Positions 33,173-53,079 of a stretch of DNA of 64,000 nucleotides are shown piece by piece. This DNA is from Streptomyces nymphaeiformis (lineage in GTDB: Bacteria > Actinomycetota > Actinomycetes > Streptomycetales > Streptomycetaceae): positions 186,001 through 250,000 of the forward strand of contig NZ_JACHJY010000011.1 of assembly GCF_014203895.1 (NCBI RefSeq), given 5' to 3'. Each line of letters starts with the position of its first letter. Position 1 is the stretch's first letter. A program made the translations under genes and the position numbers. The notes under the pieces are model-generated. The model searched no databases, was not told where the DNA came from, and saw only the letters and a program-made list of their open reading frames with translations.

Positions 33173-34873
33173 TTACTGGACGGAGTTGTAGATCCCCCAG
33201 CCGCCGCCGAGCTTGACGCGCGCGGTGAACTTGCCCGAGGTCGTGTTCAGGTAGCGGTAGAGGTCGCCGCCCGAGGTGATGCCGAGCAGGTCGCCCTTGC
33301 CGTCGGCGTTGAGGTCGCCGGGGGCGACGATCTTGGAGTACGTGTTCCAGCCGGTGCCGATCTTCAGACGGCTCTTGAACGGCGTGGTGGCGGTGCCGGT
33401 GCCGGCGTACAGGTACAGGTCGCCGGCGGAGGTGCGGGCCACGATGTCCGTGCGGCCGTCGCCCGTGTAGTCACCGGCGCCGACGATCTTGTTGTAGATG
33501 CCCCAGCCGGTGCCGACCTTGACGCGGGCGGCGAGGGCGGTGCCGGAGCCGTTGCCCTTGTACAGGTAGAGGTTGCCGGAGGCGTCGCGGGCGAGCAGGT
33601 CGCCCTTGCCGTCGCCGGACAGGTCACCGGGGGCGACCAGGGTGTTGTAGACGCCCCAGCCGCCGCCGAGGTCGTTGCCGTCGATCCACAGGTGGCCCTC
33701 GAACACGAAGCCGGTGTCGGACATGCCGTCCGCGTTCATCGAGGAGAAGTGGAGGGGGGCCGGACCGCCCGTCAGACCGCCGGCGCCGAGGATCTCCTCG
33801 CGCGGGTCCAGCTTGCCGGTGGTGCTGTTGTAGTACCAGTACCAGGCCCCGCCGGGCGTGGTGGCGAAGATGCCCTCCTTGCCCGTGTACGCGTTGTTGC
33901 CGGCGCCCGCGAACTGCTGGACGCCCGCCCAGCTGCCCGCGTCGCTGGCCTGCTGGCGCGAGGCCAGGGTGCCGTTGCCGTTGGCCGGGTAGTAGAACAG
34001 GGTGCCCGCGTTGTCCCGGGCGAGGAGGTCGCCGTCGCCGGCGGGCAGGATCTGGTTGTAGATGTTCCAGCCGCCGCCGACGGACTGGCGGGCGGCGAAC
34101 GGCTGGGTGGTGCTGCCCGTACCGGCGTAGAAGTACAGGGTGCCGGCGGTGTCGCGGGCGTAGAGGTCGCCCTTGCCGTCGCCGTTGCCGTCGCCGAGGC
34201 CCACGAGCTGGTCGTAGGCGCCCCAGCCGCCGCCGATGAGGACGCGGCCGCCGAACGGCGCGTCCAGGTTGCCGGTGGCCAGGTACAGGTACAGCTGGCC
34301 GTCCTTGGTGCGGGCGACCACGTCGGCGCGGCCGTCGCCGTTCACGTCGCCGGGCGAGGTGACCTTGTTGTAGACCTGCCAGCCGCCGCCGACCACGTGC
34401 TCGTACGGCGTACCGGTCGGGTCGACGTCCGCGTACAGCTTGAGCGTGCCGTTCTCCGAGACGACGAGGACCTCGGGCTCGGTGGTGTCACCGCCCTGCT
34501 GGCCGATCGGGATGATGTCCTTGGCGACGTCGTCTTCGCGGTAGAGCTCGAAGACGTCGTCGAGGCTGGTGGCCGTGCTCGAGAGCTCGCCCTCCACGCC
34601 CCGGAAGATGACGTCGTCGATGCCGTCGCCGTCCAGGTCGGACAGCGGCAGCGAGGAGGCCTCGCCGGCGGCGGCGACGCCGGCGCGGGCGGCGCCCTTC
34701 TTCGGGAGCGTCAGCTTCGGCGGGGTGAAGGAGGGCGCCTCCTTCTTGACGGACGGAAGCGGCGCCGGGGTGTCGGCGGCGGAGGCCGTGCCCGCGAGGA
34801 GCATGCCGGCGGAGAGAGCGAGAGCGGTGCAGGCCGCGACGCGGCGAGCGCGCTTGGAGTGCTGGAACAGCAA
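33173..34873 (-). CDS. Secreted FG-GAP/VCBS repeat protein
   Basis: This 566-residue protein has a Sec signal peptide (basic stretch KRARR then AACTALALSAGMLLAGTASA). An FG-GAP unit with calcium-type acidic loop DLDGDGIDD is near residue 100. The rest consists of roughly ten repeats of about 45-50 residues with GDxNGDGRAD and the core LYLYxGxGxxxxPFxxRxxVGxGWxxYN. It is the first of three tandem paralogues. The start is TTG 34873, conserved in all three copies and placed just after the GATCCC hairpin. Such proteins are usually extracellular binding or adhesion modules; function unknown. Confidence 0.85.
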   Translation of the reverse strand: MLFQHSKRARRVAACTALALSAGMLLAGTASAADTPAPLPSVKKEAPSFTPPKLTLPKKGAARAGVAAAGEASSLPLSDLDGDGIDDVIFRGVEGELSSTATSLDDVFELYREDDVAKDIIPIGQQGGDTTEPEVLVVSENGTLKLYADVDPTGTPYEHVVGGGWQVYNKVTSPGDVNGDGRADVVARTKDGQLYLYLATGNLDAPFGGRVLIGGGWGAYDQLVGLGDGNGDGKGDLYARDTAGTLYFYAGTGSTTQPFAARQSVGGGWNIYNQILPAGDGDLLARDNAGTLFYYPANGNGTLASRQQASDAGSWAGVQQFAGAGNNAYTGKEGIFATTPGGAWYWYYNSTTGKLDPREEILGAGGLTGGPAPLHFSSMNADGMSDTGFVFEGHLWIDGNDLGGGWGVYNTLVAPGDLSGDGKGDLLARDASGNLYLYKGNGSGTALAARVKVGTGWGIYNKIVGAGDYTGDGRTDIVARTSAGDLYLYAGTGTATTPFKSRLKIGTGWNTYSKIVAPGDLNADGKGDLLGITSGGDLYRYLNTTSGKFTARVKLGGGWGIYNSVQ

Positions 34874-35025
34874 GAGATCCCCCCCAGGGATCAGAGGTTC
34901 GACAGAACCAAACAGGGGGGCTCGTACGGCATCGAACGGCGTCAGCGCAGGCCAGTGGGCATGCGGAGACGACCTCGTTCGAAGGTCGGAACACCCCCCC
35001 GGATGTTGAACACGAGTCTACTCAC
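34874..35025 (-). repeat. Duplicated 5' leader, copy A
   Basis: This segment upstream of the gene at 33173-34873 is closely similar to 38749-38903 upstream of the third paralogue. It includes an identical 43-nt run (34983-35025 here, 38861-38903 there) containing seven Cs and, read on the minus strand, a TAGACT -10-like box (35014-35019). A GGTTC-GACA-GAACC hairpin near the coding end is also shared. It probably contains the promoter and 5' untranslated region. Confidence 0.7.
34876..34892 (-). promoter_or_regulatory. Hairpin covering the ribosome binding site
   Basis: On the minus strand GATCCC-TGGGG-GGGATC can fold into a six-base-pair stem whose 3' side and loop contain the G-run that acts as Shine-Dalgarno sequence for TTG 34873. 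The identical 17-nt element precedes the two other paralogues at 36820-36836 and 38752-38768. Confidence 0.6.
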
Positions 35026-35062
35026 GCTTGCGCCTGACGCCAGCGATCTACGGATGAACAAC

Positions 35063-35097
35063 AGGCGCCCCGCACCCGAGCCGGGTGCGGGGCGCCT
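35063..35097 (-). terminator. Hairpin terminator after second FG-GAP gene
   Basis: Arms AGGCGCCCCGCACCCG and CGGGTGCGGGGCGCCT form a perfect stem with a short AGC loop, 18 nt after the minus-strand stop at 35116. Confidence 0.78.
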
Positions 35098-35115
35098 TCG
35101 GGCCCTGGCGGATCG

Positions 35116-36816
35116 TCAGGACATGCTGTTGTAGATGCCGTAGCCGGTGCCGATCTTGGCGCGCGCGGCGAACTTGCCCGGGGTGGTGTTCAGGTAGCTG
35201 TAGAGGTCGCCGCCCGAGGTGACGCCGAGGAGGTCGCCCTTGCCGTCGGCGTTGAGGTCGCCGGGGGCGACGATCTTGGAGTACGTGTTCCAGCCGGTGC
35301 CGATCTTCACGCGGGCCTTGAACGGCGTGGTGGCGTTGCCGGTGCCGGCGTACAGGTACAGGTCGCCGGCGGAGGTGCGGGCCACGACGTCCGTGCGGCC
35401 GTCGCCCGTGTAGTCACCGGCGCCGACGATCTTGTTGTACGTCCCCCAGCCGGTGCCGACCTTGACGCGGGCGGCGAGGGCGGTGCCGGAGCCGTTGCCC
35501 TTGTAGAGGTAGAGGATTCCGGAGGCGTCGCGGGCCAGCAGGTCGCCCTTGCCGTCGCCGGACAGGTCACCCGCGCCGACGATCGTGTTGTAGACGCCCC
35601 AGCCGCCGCCGAGGTCGACGCCGTCGATGGAGAGGCGGCCCTGGTAGATCTCCGCGATGTCCGACGAGGCGTCCGCGTCCATCGAGGACAGGTGGGTGAA
35701 GTTGGCGCCGTTCCAGCCGCCGACGTCACCCGCCTGGCTGCGGGCGTTGAGACCACCGCCGGTCGAGGCGCGGTACCAGAACAGCGTGCCGCGGGTGTCC
35801 CGCGCGAGGACGTCCTCCTTCTCGCCGGCGACCGGGTTGTTGCCCGCCCCGGCGAACTGCGGGATGCCGGTCCAGCCGCCCGTGTCGCTGAGCTGCTGAC
35901 GGGCCGCGAGGGTGCCGTCGCCCTTGCCGGTGTAGTACCAGAGCGTGCCCTTCGAGTCGCGGGCGATCAGCTCGCCGTTGCCGTCGCCGTTGTCGTCGCC
36001 GACGGGCAGGATCTGGTTGTAGACGCCCCAGCCGGTGCCGATGGACCTGCGGGTGGCGAACGGCTTGGCCTTGTCGCCCGTACCGGCGTAGAACCACAGG
36101 TTCCCGGCGGTGTCGCGGCCGATCAGGTCCGCCCAGCCGTCGCCGTTGTTGTCGCCGATGCCGAGGAGCTGGTCGTAGATGTTGTAGCCGGTGCCGATCT
36201 TCACGCGCGACGCGAACGGCGCGGTGCGGACGCCGGTGGCGTAGTACAGCCACAGGTTGCCGTCGAGGTCGCGGGCGACCAGGTCCGCGCGGCCGTCGTC
36301 GTTGACGTCGCCGGGCGCGACGACCTTGTTGTAGATGTTCCAGCCGTTGCCCTGCCAGACGTAGCTCGCGCTGGTCGGCGTCGCGTCGGCGTACAGGCGG
36401 AGGGCGCCCTGCGAGGACAGCGTCAGGAGCTCGGGGCCGCTGGCGTTCCCGTCCTGGTTGCCGATCGGGATGATGTCCTTCGGCGGCGTGGTGATGGACG
36501 TGAACGCGTCCGCGGCGGCGGTCGTGTAGACCTTGCCGTCCCAGCCGCGGTAGATCAGGTCGCTGTAGCCGTCGCCGTCGAGGTCCGACAGCTGCGGCGA
36601 GGCGCCGACACCGGAGGCCGCCGTCGCGCCCTGACGGAGCGCGCCGCTCGTCGGCCGCGTCAGGGACGGCGGGGTGAAGTCCGCCGCCGGCTTCTCGACG
36701 GCCGGGCGCGGCGCCGGAGAGTCGGCGATCGCGGGGCTCGCGAGGAGCATGCCGGCGGAGAGGACGAGCGCGGTGCACGCGCCGAGGCGCGTACGCGTGA
36801 AGTGCACAGAACGCAA
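35116..36816 (-). CDS. Secreted FG-GAP/VCBS repeat protein
   Basis: This 566-residue paralogue has a signal peptide (MRSVHFTRTRLGACTALVLS then an AGMLLASPAIA cleavage region), an FG-GAP unit LSDLDGDGYSDLIYRGWDG near residue 75, and a series of 45-50-residue repeats with VARDLDGNLWLYYATG, KIGTGYNIYDQ and GDLNADGKGDLLG. Its 3' third is nearly identical in DNA sequence to the 3' third of the gene at 33173. TTG 36816 is the start, in the same position as in the other two paralogues. Secreted, function unknown. Confidence 0.85.
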   Translation of the reverse strand: MRSVHFTRTRLGACTALVLSAGMLLASPAIADSPAPRPAVEKPAADFTPPSLTRPTSGALRQGATAASGVGASPQLSDLDGDGYSDLIYRGWDGKVYTTAAADAFTSITTPPKDIIPIGNQDGNASGPELLTLSSQGALRLYADATPTSASYVWQGNGWNIYNKVVAPGDVNDDGRADLVARDLDGNLWLYYATGVRTAPFASRVKIGTGYNIYDQLLGIGDNNGDGWADLIGRDTAGNLWFYAGTGDKAKPFATRRSIGTGWGVYNQILPVGDDNGDGNGELIARDSKGTLWYYTGKGDGTLAARQQLSDTGGWTGIPQFAGAGNNPVAGEKEDVLARDTRGTLFWYRASTGGGLNARSQAGDVGGWNGANFTHLSSMDADASSDIAEIYQGRLSIDGVDLGGGWGVYNTIVGAGDLSGDGKGDLLARDASGILYLYKGNGSGTALAARVKVGTGWGTYNKIVGAGDYTGDGRTDVVARTSAGDLYLYAGTGNATTPFKARVKIGTGWNTYSKIVAPGDLNADGKGDLLGVTSGGDLYSYLNTTPGKFAARAKIGTGYGIYNSMS

Positions 36817-36819
36817 AGA

Positions 36820-36836
36820 GATCCCCCCCAGGGATC
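36820..36836 (-). promoter_or_regulatory. Hairpin covering the ribosome binding site
   Basis: The same 17-nt element (minus strand GATCCC-TGGGG-GGGATC) as at 34876 and 38752, here 3 nt before TTG 36816. Beyond it the leader of this gene diverges from the other two, so the hairpin is conserved beyond simple leader duplication. Confidence 0.6.
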
Positions 36837-36975
36837 AGAATGTCGTGGGACCGGAAACGGGTCCGCGGCGCCTCGCTACGGAGGAAACGCGTACGAAGGG
36901 CGAACCCCCCGGGTGTGGGGGGAGCATACCTCCCGGTCGTGACGGCTCTCCGACCCGCAGGAGGCGGACGCGGGA

Positions 36976-37007
36976 ACGCCCCGCACCGGGGAACCGGTGC
37001 GGGGCGT
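36976..37007 (-). terminator. Hairpin terminator after third FG-GAP gene
   Basis: ACGCCCCGCACCGG and CCGGTGCGGGGCGT pair around a GGAA loop, 22 nt after the minus-strand stop at 37030. Confidence 0.75.
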
Positions 37008-37029
37008 CCTGCGAGGTGCGCGGTACGAC

Positions 37030-38748
37030 TTAGTACAGACCGTTGTAGATCTGGTAGCCGGTGCCGATGGAGGCGCGCGGCTTGAAGACGTAGCCCGTGT
37101 CGCCGGTGCCGGAGTAGCGGAACAGCTCGCCGCCCGAGTTCACCGCGAGGAGGTCGGCCTTGCCGTCACCCGTGATGTCACCGGGCGCCACGATCTTCGC
37201 GTACGCGTTCCAGCCGCCGCCGATCTTCACGCGGGACTTGAACGCGTAGCCCGCCTGGCCGGTGCCCTGGTACAGGTACAGGGTGCCGTCCTTGGCGCGG
37301 GCGATCAGGTCGTTGAGGCCGTCGCCGCTGTAGTCGCCCGAGCCGACGATCCGGTCGTACGCGTTCCAGCCGCCGCCGATCTTGACGCGGGCGTGCAGGG
37401 CGTTGCCGTCGTAGTTGCTCCGGTAGAGCCACAGGACGCCGTCGCGGTCACGGGCCACGAAGTCGCCGGTGCCGTCGCCGTTCAGGTCGCCGGGGCCGGC
37501 GATCTGGTTGATCGCGCCCCAGCCGCCGCCGAAGTCGGTCTCGTTGCCGTAGAGGTGACCGTCGAAGATCTCCAGCGTGTCGGAGACCGCGTTCCGGCCG
37601 AGGGAGTTGACCTCGAACAGCGTCGCGCCGTACCAGCCGTTGTCGTCGCTGATCTGGATGCGGGGCGCGACCCGGCCGTTGTTCATCGAGTCGTACCAGA
37701 AGAGCGTGCCGCCCTTGGTGCGGGCGACCATGCCCTCCTTGCCGTGCGCCGGGACGTTGCCCGCGCCGGAGAACTGGTCCACGCCGTCCCAGGCGCCCAC
37801 GGAGCCGACCTGCTTGCGCGAGGTGTAGTAGCCGCGGCCGGTGCCGAAGTACTCGTACAGCGTGCCGTCGACGCCGCGCGCGAGGACGTCGGGGATCCCG
37901 TTCGCGTTGTCGTCGTCGATGCCGATGATCTGGTTGTACTGCTGCCAGCCCCGGCCGACCTCCTTGCGCGGCTTCAGCGTGTACGGGCTGTCGGAGCTCC
38001 CGTAGTAGAAGAGCACGCCGGAGGGCGTACGGGCGAGGAAGTCGCCCTTGCCGTCGCCGTCGCTGTCGCCGAGGCCGATCAGCTGGTCGTAGGCGTACCA
38101 GCCCTTGCCGACCAGCTTGCGCGCGTGGAACGGGGCGTTCGGGGTGCCGGTGGAGACGTACACGTACAGCTCGCCGGCGGGCGTACGGGCCAGCACGTCG
38201 GCGCGGCCGTCACCGCTGAGGTCGCCGGGCGAGAAGATCTTGTTGTAGATCTGCCAGCCCGCGCCGACCCAGCGGAGGCTGCCGTAGGACGTGGTGGCGT
38301 CGCCGTACACGCTCAGCGCGCCGAACTTCGAGAGCGTCAGGATCTCGGGACCGCTGCCGTTCTTGTCCTGGTCGCCGAGCGGGATGACGTCCTTGACGAA
38401 GGAGGTGTCACCGTCGTTGCGGATGAACTCGGCGCCCTCGGAGTTCGTCGTCGCCGTGCGCAGCGAGCCGTTGATGCGCATGATGAGGTCGGTCCGGCCG
38501 TCGCCGTCCAGGTCCGAGCGCGACGGCGGACGCTCCGCCGTGACGCCGGCGAGCCCGGCGCGGGCGCCGTCCGTCTGCGGGACGGTCCGCAGCGACGGGG
38601 CGGCGGGAGACTGCGCGGGCTTCTCGGTGGCCGCGTGCGGCGCCGGCGCGTCGGCCGACGCGGGGCCCGCGAGGAGCATGCCCGCAGAGAGGGCGAGGGC
38701 GGTGCAGCCCGCGAGGCGGCGGGCACGCTGGGAACGCATGAAGAACAA
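37030..38748 (-). CDS. Secreted FG-GAP/VCBS repeat protein
   Basis: This 572-residue paralogue has the signal peptide region RSQRARRLAGCTALALSAGM, an acidic SDLDGDGRTDLIMRI FG-GAP unit near residue 75, and repeats such as LARTPAGELYVYVSTG, VGKGWYAYDQLIG and GDLNGDGTGDFVARDRDGVLW. TTG 38748 is used because it matches the other two copies and its spacing from the G-run; ATG 38739 in frame is the alternative. It is the most diverged of the three and is transcribed first in the array, each gene having its own terminator. Confidence 0.85.
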   Translation of the reverse strand: MFFMRSQRARRLAGCTALALSAGMLLAGPASADAPAPHAATEKPAQSPAAPSLRTVPQTDGARAGLAGVTAERPPSRSDLDGDGRTDLIMRINGSLRTATTNSEGAEFIRNDGDTSFVKDVIPLGDQDKNGSGPEILTLSKFGALSVYGDATTSYGSLRWVGAGWQIYNKIFSPGDLSGDGRADVLARTPAGELYVYVSTGTPNAPFHARKLVGKGWYAYDQLIGLGDSDGDGKGDFLARTPSGVLFYYGSSDSPYTLKPRKEVGRGWQQYNQIIGIDDDNANGIPDVLARGVDGTLYEYFGTGRGYYTSRKQVGSVGAWDGVDQFSGAGNVPAHGKEGMVARTKGGTLFWYDSMNNGRVAPRIQISDDNGWYGATLFEVNSLGRNAVSDTLEIFDGHLYGNETDFGGGWGAINQIAGPGDLNGDGTGDFVARDRDGVLWLYRSNYDGNALHARVKIGGGWNAYDRIVGSGDYSGDGLNDLIARAKDGTLYLYQGTGQAGYAFKSRVKIGGGWNAYAKIVAPGDITGDGKADLLAVNSGGELFRYSGTGDTGYVFKPRASIGTGYQIYNGLY

Positions 38749-38903
38749 AAAGATCCCCCCCAGGGATCAGAGGTTCGACGGAACCAAACAGGGGGGCTCG
38801 AACAGGCGTCGAACGGCGTCAGCGCAGGGCGGAAAGCACGCGGAGACGACCTCGTAGGACGGTCGGAACACCCCCCCGGATGTTGAACACGAGTCTACTC
38901 ACG
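38749..38903 (-). repeat. Duplicated 5' leader, copy B
   Basis: Second copy of the leader described at 34874-35025. It shares the GATCCC hairpin (38752-38768), the GGTTC-GACG-GAACC hairpin, the AACGGCGTCAGCGCAG block and the 43-nt identical run ending at 38903 with the TAGACT box (minus strand, 38892-38897). Sequence identity stops sharply after 38903. Confidence 0.7.
38752..38768 (-). promoter_or_regulatory. Hairpin covering the ribosome binding site
   Basis: Third copy of the 17-nt GATCCC-TGGGG-GGGATC element, 3 nt before TTG 38748. Confidence 0.6.
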
Positions 38904-38993
38904 GCGCCGCCGATTACCAGATGTTTACCTCGCCGAATCCGACCGTCCGGTCGTTTCTCGCCTCCCGGCCCCCCGCCGGGCCCGGCGCCGGCG

Positions 38994-39686
38994 TCAGTTC
39001 TTCCGGTGCCCTATCAGCCGCGGCTTCTGCTCCAGACCGTCCAGACCGTGCCACGCCAGGTTCACCAGATGCGCCGCGACCTCCGACTTCTCCGGCTTGC
39101 GGACGTCCAGCCACCACTGACCCGTCAGCGCCACACTGCCCACCAGCGCCTGCGCGTACAGCGGCGCCAGCTTCGGGTCGAAGCCCCGCGCCTTGAACTC
39201 CAGGCCCAGGATGTCCTCCACCTGGGTGGCGATGTCACTGATCAGCGACGCGAACGTGCCCGTCGACTGCGCCACCGGCGAATCCCGCACGAGGATCCGG
39301 AACCCGTCCGTGTAGTTCTCGATGTAGTCGAGCAGCGCGAACGCCGCCTGCTCCAGGAGCTCCCGCGGATGCCCCGCCGTCAGCGCCCCCGTCACCCCGT
39401 CCAGGAGCTGCCGCATCTCCCGGTCGACGACGACCGCGTACAGCCCCTCCTTGCCGCCGAAGTGCTCGTACACCACCGGCTTGGACACCCCGGCCTTCGC
39501 CGCGATCTCCTCCACCGACGTGCCCTCGAAGCCCTTCTCCGCGAAGAGCGTGCGACCGATGTCGAGCAGCTGCTCCCGGCGCTCCGCGCCCGTCATCCGC
39601 ACCCGGCGCCCCCGCCGGGGCTTCTGCTCTCCGCCGCTGCTGCCGGTACCGCCGGTCCTGCCCTCGATCGCCACGTCTTCCATCAT
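38994..39686 (-). CDS. TetR-family transcriptional regulator
   Basis: This 230-residue repressor has its TetR HTH at about residues 32-80, with RREQLLDIGRTLFAEKGFEGTSVEEIAAKAGVSK partly visible as TSVEEIAAKAGVSK and VVYEHFGGKEGLY. The C-terminal helical ligand domain fills the rest. The N-terminus is basic and Gly-rich (KPRRGRRVRM). ATG 39686 or the adjacent ATG 39683 overlaps the stop of the desaturase gene, so the two are co-transcribed and coupled. It probably controls the desaturase promoter through the TACGN4CGTA repeats at 40725-40751, sensing acyl-CoA or membrane lipid state; that link is inference. Confidence 0.9.
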   Translation of the reverse strand: MMEDVAIEGRTGGTGSSGGEQKPRRGRRVRMTGAERREQLLDIGRTLFAEKGFEGTSVEEIAAKAGVSKPVVYEHFGGKEGLYAVVVDREMRQLLDGVTGALTAGHPRELLEQAAFALLDYIENYTDGFRILVRDSPVAQSTGTFASLISDIATQVEDILGLEFKARGFDPKLAPLYAQALVGSVALTGQWWLDVRKPEKSEVAAHLVNLAWHGLDGLEQKPRLIGHRKN

Positions 39687-53008: not shown

Positions 53009-53079
53009 CTCCCGGGGGAGGACTCGAACCCCCATATGGAGAACCAAAATCTCCCGTCTTGCCCTTAGACGACCCGGGA
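53009..53079 (-). tRNA. tRNA-Gln (anticodon TTG)
   Basis: The minus strand folds into a complete cloverleaf of 71 nt: acceptor TCCCGGG/CCCGGGA with discriminator G, D-stem GTCT/AGAC, anticodon stem GGAGA/TCTCC with loop TTTTGGT (anticodon TTG, reading CAA/CAG), and T-stem GGGGG/CCTCC with loop TTCGAGT. CCA is not encoded. The gene begins only 6 nt after the stop codon of the protein gene at 53086-53958. Confidence 0.95.

Follow-up and report, generated by a model that had tools for sequence, protein, structure and literature searches.

A candidate structured leader joining an extended Shine-Dalgarno hairpin to a weak TTG start in front of Streptomyces FG-GAP genes

Introduction

Hairpins that sequester the Shine-Dalgarno (SD) sequence are a general class in bacterial 5' leaders. 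The leader described here precedes three genes for FG-GAP repeat proteins in a window of 64,000 nucleotides from Streptomyces nymphaeiformis (contig NZ_JACHJY010000011.1, positions 186,001 to 250,000 of the forward strand), and carries a 17-nt element, GATCCCTGGGGGGGATC, just before the start codon of each gene. It resembles the members of that class in having the SD within a stem next to the start codon; it differs from them in serving a single gene family, in its unusually extended match to 16S rRNA, in its conserved UUG and in its larger body, built of a closing stem, P1, around an arm, P2. The dauA motif, a candidate riboswitch of Streptomyces, is likewise a 5' leader with a putative SD within its structure, but as characterized in PMC11109978 it precedes STAS-protein genes and forms a three-stem junction. 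It is set apart by this description rather than by alignment, and the term 'FG-GAP' has no occurrence in the main text of that paper (PMC11109978).

Within the window, Rfam 15 returned above the gathering cut-off only a tRNA at 53009-53079; at a relaxed threshold, the region 34700-39100 gave four matches, all far below the cut-off and none of them relevant. No description of the leader was found in open PMC papers, a search for which subscription papers were mostly outside the scope, so that absence is no proof. The comparisons below indicate that the three genes and their relatives probably share a structured leader specific to their family. In it a hairpin would enclose a very strong SD next to a weak UUG and act as a translation brake.

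The element and its occurrence

The first-pass annotation had placed the element 2-3 nt before the TTG start of all three genes. A search for the element confirmed this placement: it occurs exactly three times in the window, always as an exact match on the minus strand and 2-3 nt 5' of TTG: at 38752..38768 (copy 1), 36820..36836 (copy 2) and 34876..34892 (copy 3), with gaps of 3, 3 and 2 nt. The predicted hairpin, termed H2 (GATCCC-TGGGG-GGGATC), has the stem drawn in that annotation, to which RNAfold adds one U-G pair, at -9.9 kcal/mol; its 3' arm is the extended SD. No further site with up to 3 mismatches was found in the window, and 0 of 100 shuffles yielded three matches. In the whole genome (9,223,807 bases) the three exact sites are those of these genes, two sites with 2 mismatches lie elsewhere, and the pattern CCCTGGGGGG-N1-8-TTG is confined to the same three places.

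Among 150 Streptomyces genomes there are seven exact sites, all 5' of these FG-GAP genes: three in the own genome, two in G004 and one each in G015 and G143. The element is thus present before FG-GAP genes in relatives of other species, where the first-pass annotation had proposed to look for it. The seven one-mismatch sites in those genomes are all in other contexts. At loci L014 and L020 a one-mismatch element stands a few nucleotides 5' of the apparent starts (GTG and ATG) of unrelated membrane-protein-like open reading frames (ORFs), and may be there by chance or because the start design was adopted independently.

Start codon and extended Shine-Dalgarno sequence

A scan of named genomes gave 269 stretches encoding a relative, the best 80 of which were kept and correspond to 77 loci. 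Starts were read in 51 of these loci and 49 were kept (L075 was dropped), the other 26 loci not being read by hand; L034 and L039 re-entered through model hits and L046_840 was dropped. The resulting 122 starts, which include copies found by covariance models, came down to 83 distinct ones after removal of duplicates; near-identical relatives remain among them, and the more distant loci L191-L210 are outside the set. Comparison was made with 148 background genes lying in 400 kb of the own genome and with a second set of 105 controls, in which the most upstream start with an SD was taken; some of the control starts are surely wrong.

TTG is the start codon in 72 of the 83 (ATG in 7 and GTG in 4; a count leaning to the nearest codon, since starts were picked by the analyst and, for model hits, the first start codon after the hairpin was taken). 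The corresponding figures are 14 of the 105 controls and 7 of the 148 background genes, and this last comparison, like that of the C and G runs below, leans towards a difference because the choice of background genes relied on a canonical SD and slightly penalized TTG. For S. lividans the proportion of genes with a TTG start is given as 3.9% (PMC8079986). Independent support for TTG as the true start comes from the 63 leaders with GGGATC: these preserve the N-terminal frame, and their gaps to the start codon range between 0 and 4 nt.

The 3' arm had been read as containing the SD, and it does hold a G-rich SD; this arm also seems to be kept for another reason, GGGGGGGAUC being an extended SD that can pair with 16S rRNA. 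This sequence pairs with the 16S tail GAUCACCUCC beyond the usual core, with one G-U pair and one mismatch. The tail was matched in three of six genomes searched, one of them Streptomyces; its pattern was not found in the own 32-contig draft (G000), in which the rRNA operons are probably unassembled. For the window copies the predicted SD-16S duplex reaches -15.3 kcal/mol, compared with about -10 for the hairpin. Duplexes of -13 kcal/mol or lower are predicted for 62 of the 83 family starts and 9 of the 105 controls, the medians being -15.3 and -9.5 kcal/mol. In 63 of 78 leaders the G run is still followed by ATC.

Conservation of the hairpin

The SD region is covered by a stem of 5 bp or more at 79 of the 83 family starts and in 27 of the 148 background genes, and a C run paired with a G run at 77 of 83 against 7 of 148, the latter comparison having the bias mentioned above. 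Fold energies of -8.5 kcal/mol or lower were obtained for 70 of the 83, for 41 of the 148 background genes and for 35% of the 105 controls; energy alone was rejected as evidence for H2, the difference from the controls being only modest.

The arms themselves were analyzed in 78 leaders, after leaving out the five of 83 without a C-run/G-run pair. Across 27 distinct arm pairs, pairing with the own partner at three positions adjoining the C and G runs beats shuffled pairing, only 0.75% of 2000 shuffles being as good (p 0.0075), and in the arm swap test 58 of 5000 were as good. The base adjoining the C run is paired in 75 of the 78 leaders. Both arms change together in class D and in L069 and L071. 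In class C (L062, L063, L072 and L078) the element is absent and the SD, GGGAG, lies in a different hairpin, GGUUUC.CCUG..CAGGGAGACC, with a TTG start, as if burial of the SD had been reached through a different sequence.

The start design varies among relatives, taking the forms GATCCC..GGGATC, TTCCCC-A-GGGGGGGATC, ATTCCC..GGGAAT, CAATCCC..GGGATTG and GTCC..GGAC directly 5' of TTG, ATG or GTG. The next paralogue of the same genome (at C12) has GTCCC-GGGA-GGGAC and then TTG. The order of C run, G run and TTG recurs among 20 more distant loci (L191-L210), where a candidate start was found in 17 and the first candidate is TTG in 15. At L175, some 100-170 nt 5' of the TTG at 1902, several spaced GGTCAGACG-like repeats precede the next FG-GAP paralogue, possibly as an operator array.

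The leader body

The structured leaders, all on the minus strand and each taken through its TTG, occupy 38746..38889 in copy 1 and 34870..35012 in copy 3, both of class A, and 36814..36922 in copy 2, of class B. Model R1 scores copies 1 and 3, its training members, at 161.2 and 176.5 bits, and model R2 scores its own training member, copy 2, at 89.9 bits. Read by eye, both classes have a common layout: a sigma70-like -10 box is followed by the 5' G run and the long arm P2, and these by a C element and then H2. The putative -10 boxes, also located by eye, are TAGACT at 38892..38897 (copy 1) and 35015..35020 (copy 3) and TATGCT at 36923..36928 (copy 2). The remaining leader of the middle copy had been called unrelated to the other two. 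Its sequence does differ, yet it has the class-B layout with covarying P1 and P2, and R1 matches it at 38.2 bits, partly from the element itself.

According to sequence reading and folds, P1 in class A would be closed by the 5' G run GGGGGGGTGTTC (38866..38877 in copy 1, 34989..35000 in copy 3) and the C element GAGCCCCCC (38791..38799 and 34915..34923, respectively); in copy 1 the G run would also be the 3' arm of an alternative hairpin, H1. In copy 2 the strands of P1, helix 1 of class B, are GGGTTCGC (36900..36907) and GCGGACCC (36859..36866), and the minimum-energy fold prefers a CCCCCC/GGGGGG 5' hairpin over P1. Folds of copy 1 also show a small hairpin, P3 (GGTTC-CGTC-GAACC, 38772..38785), at whose position L027 has other letters (GTGCG..CGCAC) that, judged by eye, are able to pair.

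Evidence for this architecture comes from 33 class-B leaders, in which P1 (GGxGUUCGC/GCGGACxCC) and P2 covary. The covariation score of P1, P2 and H2 together is 0.166, against 0.110 (sd 0.008) in shuffled alignments, none of 500 reaching it, and 0.100 for the best slide. Nine pairs show double changes, two in P1, five in P2 and two in H2, whereas one of the P1 pairs does not form in 21 of 28 leaders. The G-run strand was also compared with its own downstream region, which spans P1 and part of P2, in the 70 of 83 leaders where hand-made patterns found the G run, the other 13 being left out: the own partner beat swapped ones, with 0 of 2000 as good overall and 5 of 5000 within class. By class, 24 (A), 73 (B1) and 393 (B2) of 3000 swaps were as good, and class D gave no signal. 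From this covariation, selection appears to act on the structure of the leader body, in class B at least.

Some class-A leaders seem by eye to contain a short upstream ORF with the ending CTGCGCTGA; it has no start in L026 and L028 and was rejected. APC-corrected mutual information was dropped as a test, since it mainly reflected how the subclades divide. An alternative class-B 5' hairpin showed no covariation.

A proposed translation brake and the observations against it

In the proposed mechanism the transcript of each gene would begin with a structured 5' leader, roughly 100-180 nt long in aligned relatives, whose body folds as P1 (5' G run with C element) around P2. The 3' end of this leader would carry the unusually strong extended SD, complementary to the 16S tail beyond its core and folded against a short C run (GAUCCC), so that a hairpin lies directly 5' of the weak UUG. 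The 30S subunits would have to open the hairpin, which the strong SD would enable, and the UUG would keep the output low. In the sequences compared, the hairpin, the UUG and the SD are kept across the family, and P1 and P2 covary in class B. Because the design is kept in many related genes, it probably holds back or controls translation. We infer that the leader is transcribed, that the hairpin lowers translation and that the brake, far from being simply constant, is tuned or regulated.

A number of observations weigh against this reading. The background genes of this GC-rich genome also often fold to the energies given above. When the variable H2 positions are taken singly over distinct arm pairs, only the innermost is clear (p 0.006, then 0.07, 0.29 and 0.41), and these, like the other permutation fractions, are not independent probabilities, since the family sequences are related. 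Outside the C and G runs the second pair fails in 27 of the 78 leaders and the third in 16; among 33 class-B leaders the three outer pairs do not form in 16, and in subclass B2 this is uncompensated. L045 is without the C-run/G-run element, L075, which starts with TTG, has an AGGAG-type site of the ordinary kind and lacks a G-run hairpin, and at least 7 of the 17 distant candidate starts carry ACCCCTGGGGGGG, which has only four C-G pairs and folds otherwise. No covariation was found within class A alone (76 of 500 shuffles were as high), a class that hardly varies and for that reason would give no signal. As the SD-16S duplex is predicted to be stronger than the hairpin, masking may also be mild.

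Arms varying without compensation had been named as the pattern that would speak against the hairpin, and for the outer pairs this is what was seen. A single combination, GTT opposite ATC, accounts for 14 of the failed-pair leaders, and the leaders with failed outer pairs have a longer C run and a similar stability, about -8.8 kcal/mol. The common translational control first suggested for these genes is thus supported in part: the conservation of hairpin and TTG across the family holds, and coevolution of the arms is supported overall; the outer pairs drift uncompensated, and the 3' arm is explained by SD pairing as well.

Alternative explanations

One alternative is a two-state RNA switch, which we regard as possible but rather unlikely. 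The 5' G run would pair either with an upstream arm, as H1 (AACAUCC/GGGUGUU), or with the C element, as P1; formation of H1 would free the C element to shut the SD more tightly, and a ligand, a protein or folding kinetics would choose between both states. H1 and P1 do use the same G run, class-specific arms in A, C and D are each able by eye to form H1, and across classes the H1 swap test gave 12 of 2000. The idea is based on folds in which H1 was forced. The C element then pairs with the SD in three of five leaders tested, W3, L057 and L055; in the other two, W1 and L036, it does not seal the SD. Forcing H1 costs 2.5-8.2 kcal/mol in those five leaders, the swap test within class is weak (584 of 5000), the pairing of C element and SD shows neither specificity (1422 of 2000) nor coevolution, and the alternative class-B 5' hairpin is without covariation support. 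Were the switch to operate, these would be a new class of Streptomyces leader RNA, in which the 5' G run serves as a decoy, keeping a C element from sealing the extended SD, and a signal choosing H1 or P1 sets the translation of secreted lectin-like proteins; this is put forward with little confidence.

It is also improbable that the element is nothing more than an extended SD of great strength, with a 3' arm kept for 16S rRNA pairing and an incidental C run. The duplex energies favour this explanation, and so does the ATC of the 3' arm, which in 29 of the leaders retaining it stands beside a 5' arm other than GAT. This persistence suggests that the outer 3' arm is kept by ribosome pairing too, and counts equally among the points against the brake. 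Ribosome pairing would not by itself account for the base next to the C run being still paired in all but three leaders, for the joint changes of the arms in class D, L069 and L071, or for class C, where the SD is hidden in another hairpin; and a strong SD alone leaves the UUG unexplained.

An RNA thermometer, in which heat would melt the hairpin and expose the SD, agrees with the location of a masking hairpin beside the start. The energy model predicts a modest opening from 20 to 45 C in L029 and L053 (unpaired G 0.26 to 0.38 and 0.18 to 0.31) and none in the window copies W3 and W2 (0.39 to 0.40 from 20 to at least 42 C), which makes this explanation very doubtful. Equally hard to sustain is an imperfect DNA palindrome bound by a regulator such as the product of the upstream TetR-family gene: the element is palindromic, but its position is fixed at the start codon, the long right-hand G run is on one side only, and in relatives the register shifts and the arms change. 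Recent duplication or gene conversion as the only cause of identity, suggested by tandem paralogues with copy 1 and copy 3 leaders 90% identical, is already disfavoured and scarcely credible, since copy 2 diverges outside the element and retains it exactly, and the same element precedes relatives in other species, with the models matching 23 of 392 Streptomyces genomes.

Distribution of the leader

Model R1 matched 19 of the 392 Streptomyces genomes and R2 matched 22, which gives the 23 in union, by a many-genome search whose filter loses weak matches. The genes downstream were clearly of FG-GAP type, by repeats and signal sequence, in 29 of 30 loci from the R1 search, the start of L142 being consistent with it, and in 12 of 13 from the R2 search, where L161 has an early stop and L173 was left out. 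No other gene family was seen behind the model hits checked. In L161 (G248) the leader is intact and the FG-GAP frame that follows it stops at 89 aa, as in a broken gene or a sequencing error.

In L037, tandem FG-GAP genes at 909, 2863 and 4765 have leaders of classes B2, A and B1, and this mixture within one locus makes the leader classes look paralogue-specific and old. The leaders of L049 and L068, from records titled Microtetraspora glauca NRRL B-3735, equal those of L174 and L169 of G076, which is placed in Streptomyces; the record name is probably outdated or wrong.

The genes and their products

The three genes lie on the minus strand downstream of the TetR-family gene. Copy 1 (37030..38748) encodes 572 aa with a signal-peptide-like N-terminus, and copies 2 (35116..36816) and 3 (33173..34873) encode 566 aa each; all start with TTG. 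The Pfam FG-GAP entries PF13517 and PF01839 were found above the cut-off in all three proteins. At the sequence level only, the proteins resemble the beta-propeller lectins PLL/PHL and also match one chain of PDB 8w20/8w22, which bears the name Secreted esterase (8w20_C, E 1.8e-19 in alignment A1 and 2.9e-16 for copy 2). The match to the Photorhabdus PLL/PHL lectins is remote, involves the repeats and comes from another organism.

The PDB entries are described as those of the Streptomyces umbrella-toxin particle (PMC11062931), and their Secreted esterase chain is taken here to be an UmbA. The UmbA lectin subunits of umbrella toxins, as presented in PMC11062931 and PMC13274773, share the beta-propeller repeats and the sequence match, a likeness of the protein and not of the leader. 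UmbA is defined by a trypsin-like domain preceding the lectin, in the wording given in PMC11062931; in the three proteins Pfam shows FG-GAP repeats only, with no trypsin-like domain at E up to 0.001. Therefore, they are named lectin-like secreted propellers and not UmbA.

Significance

If the proposed brake is true, a hairpin and a weak UUG would be found together with an extended SD of great strength across a whole gene family. The class is small, well delimited and easily testable by reporters, and would add a structured leader to those described in the open literature. The genes it would serve encode secreted beta-propeller proteins resembling lectins that Streptomyces uses in competition.

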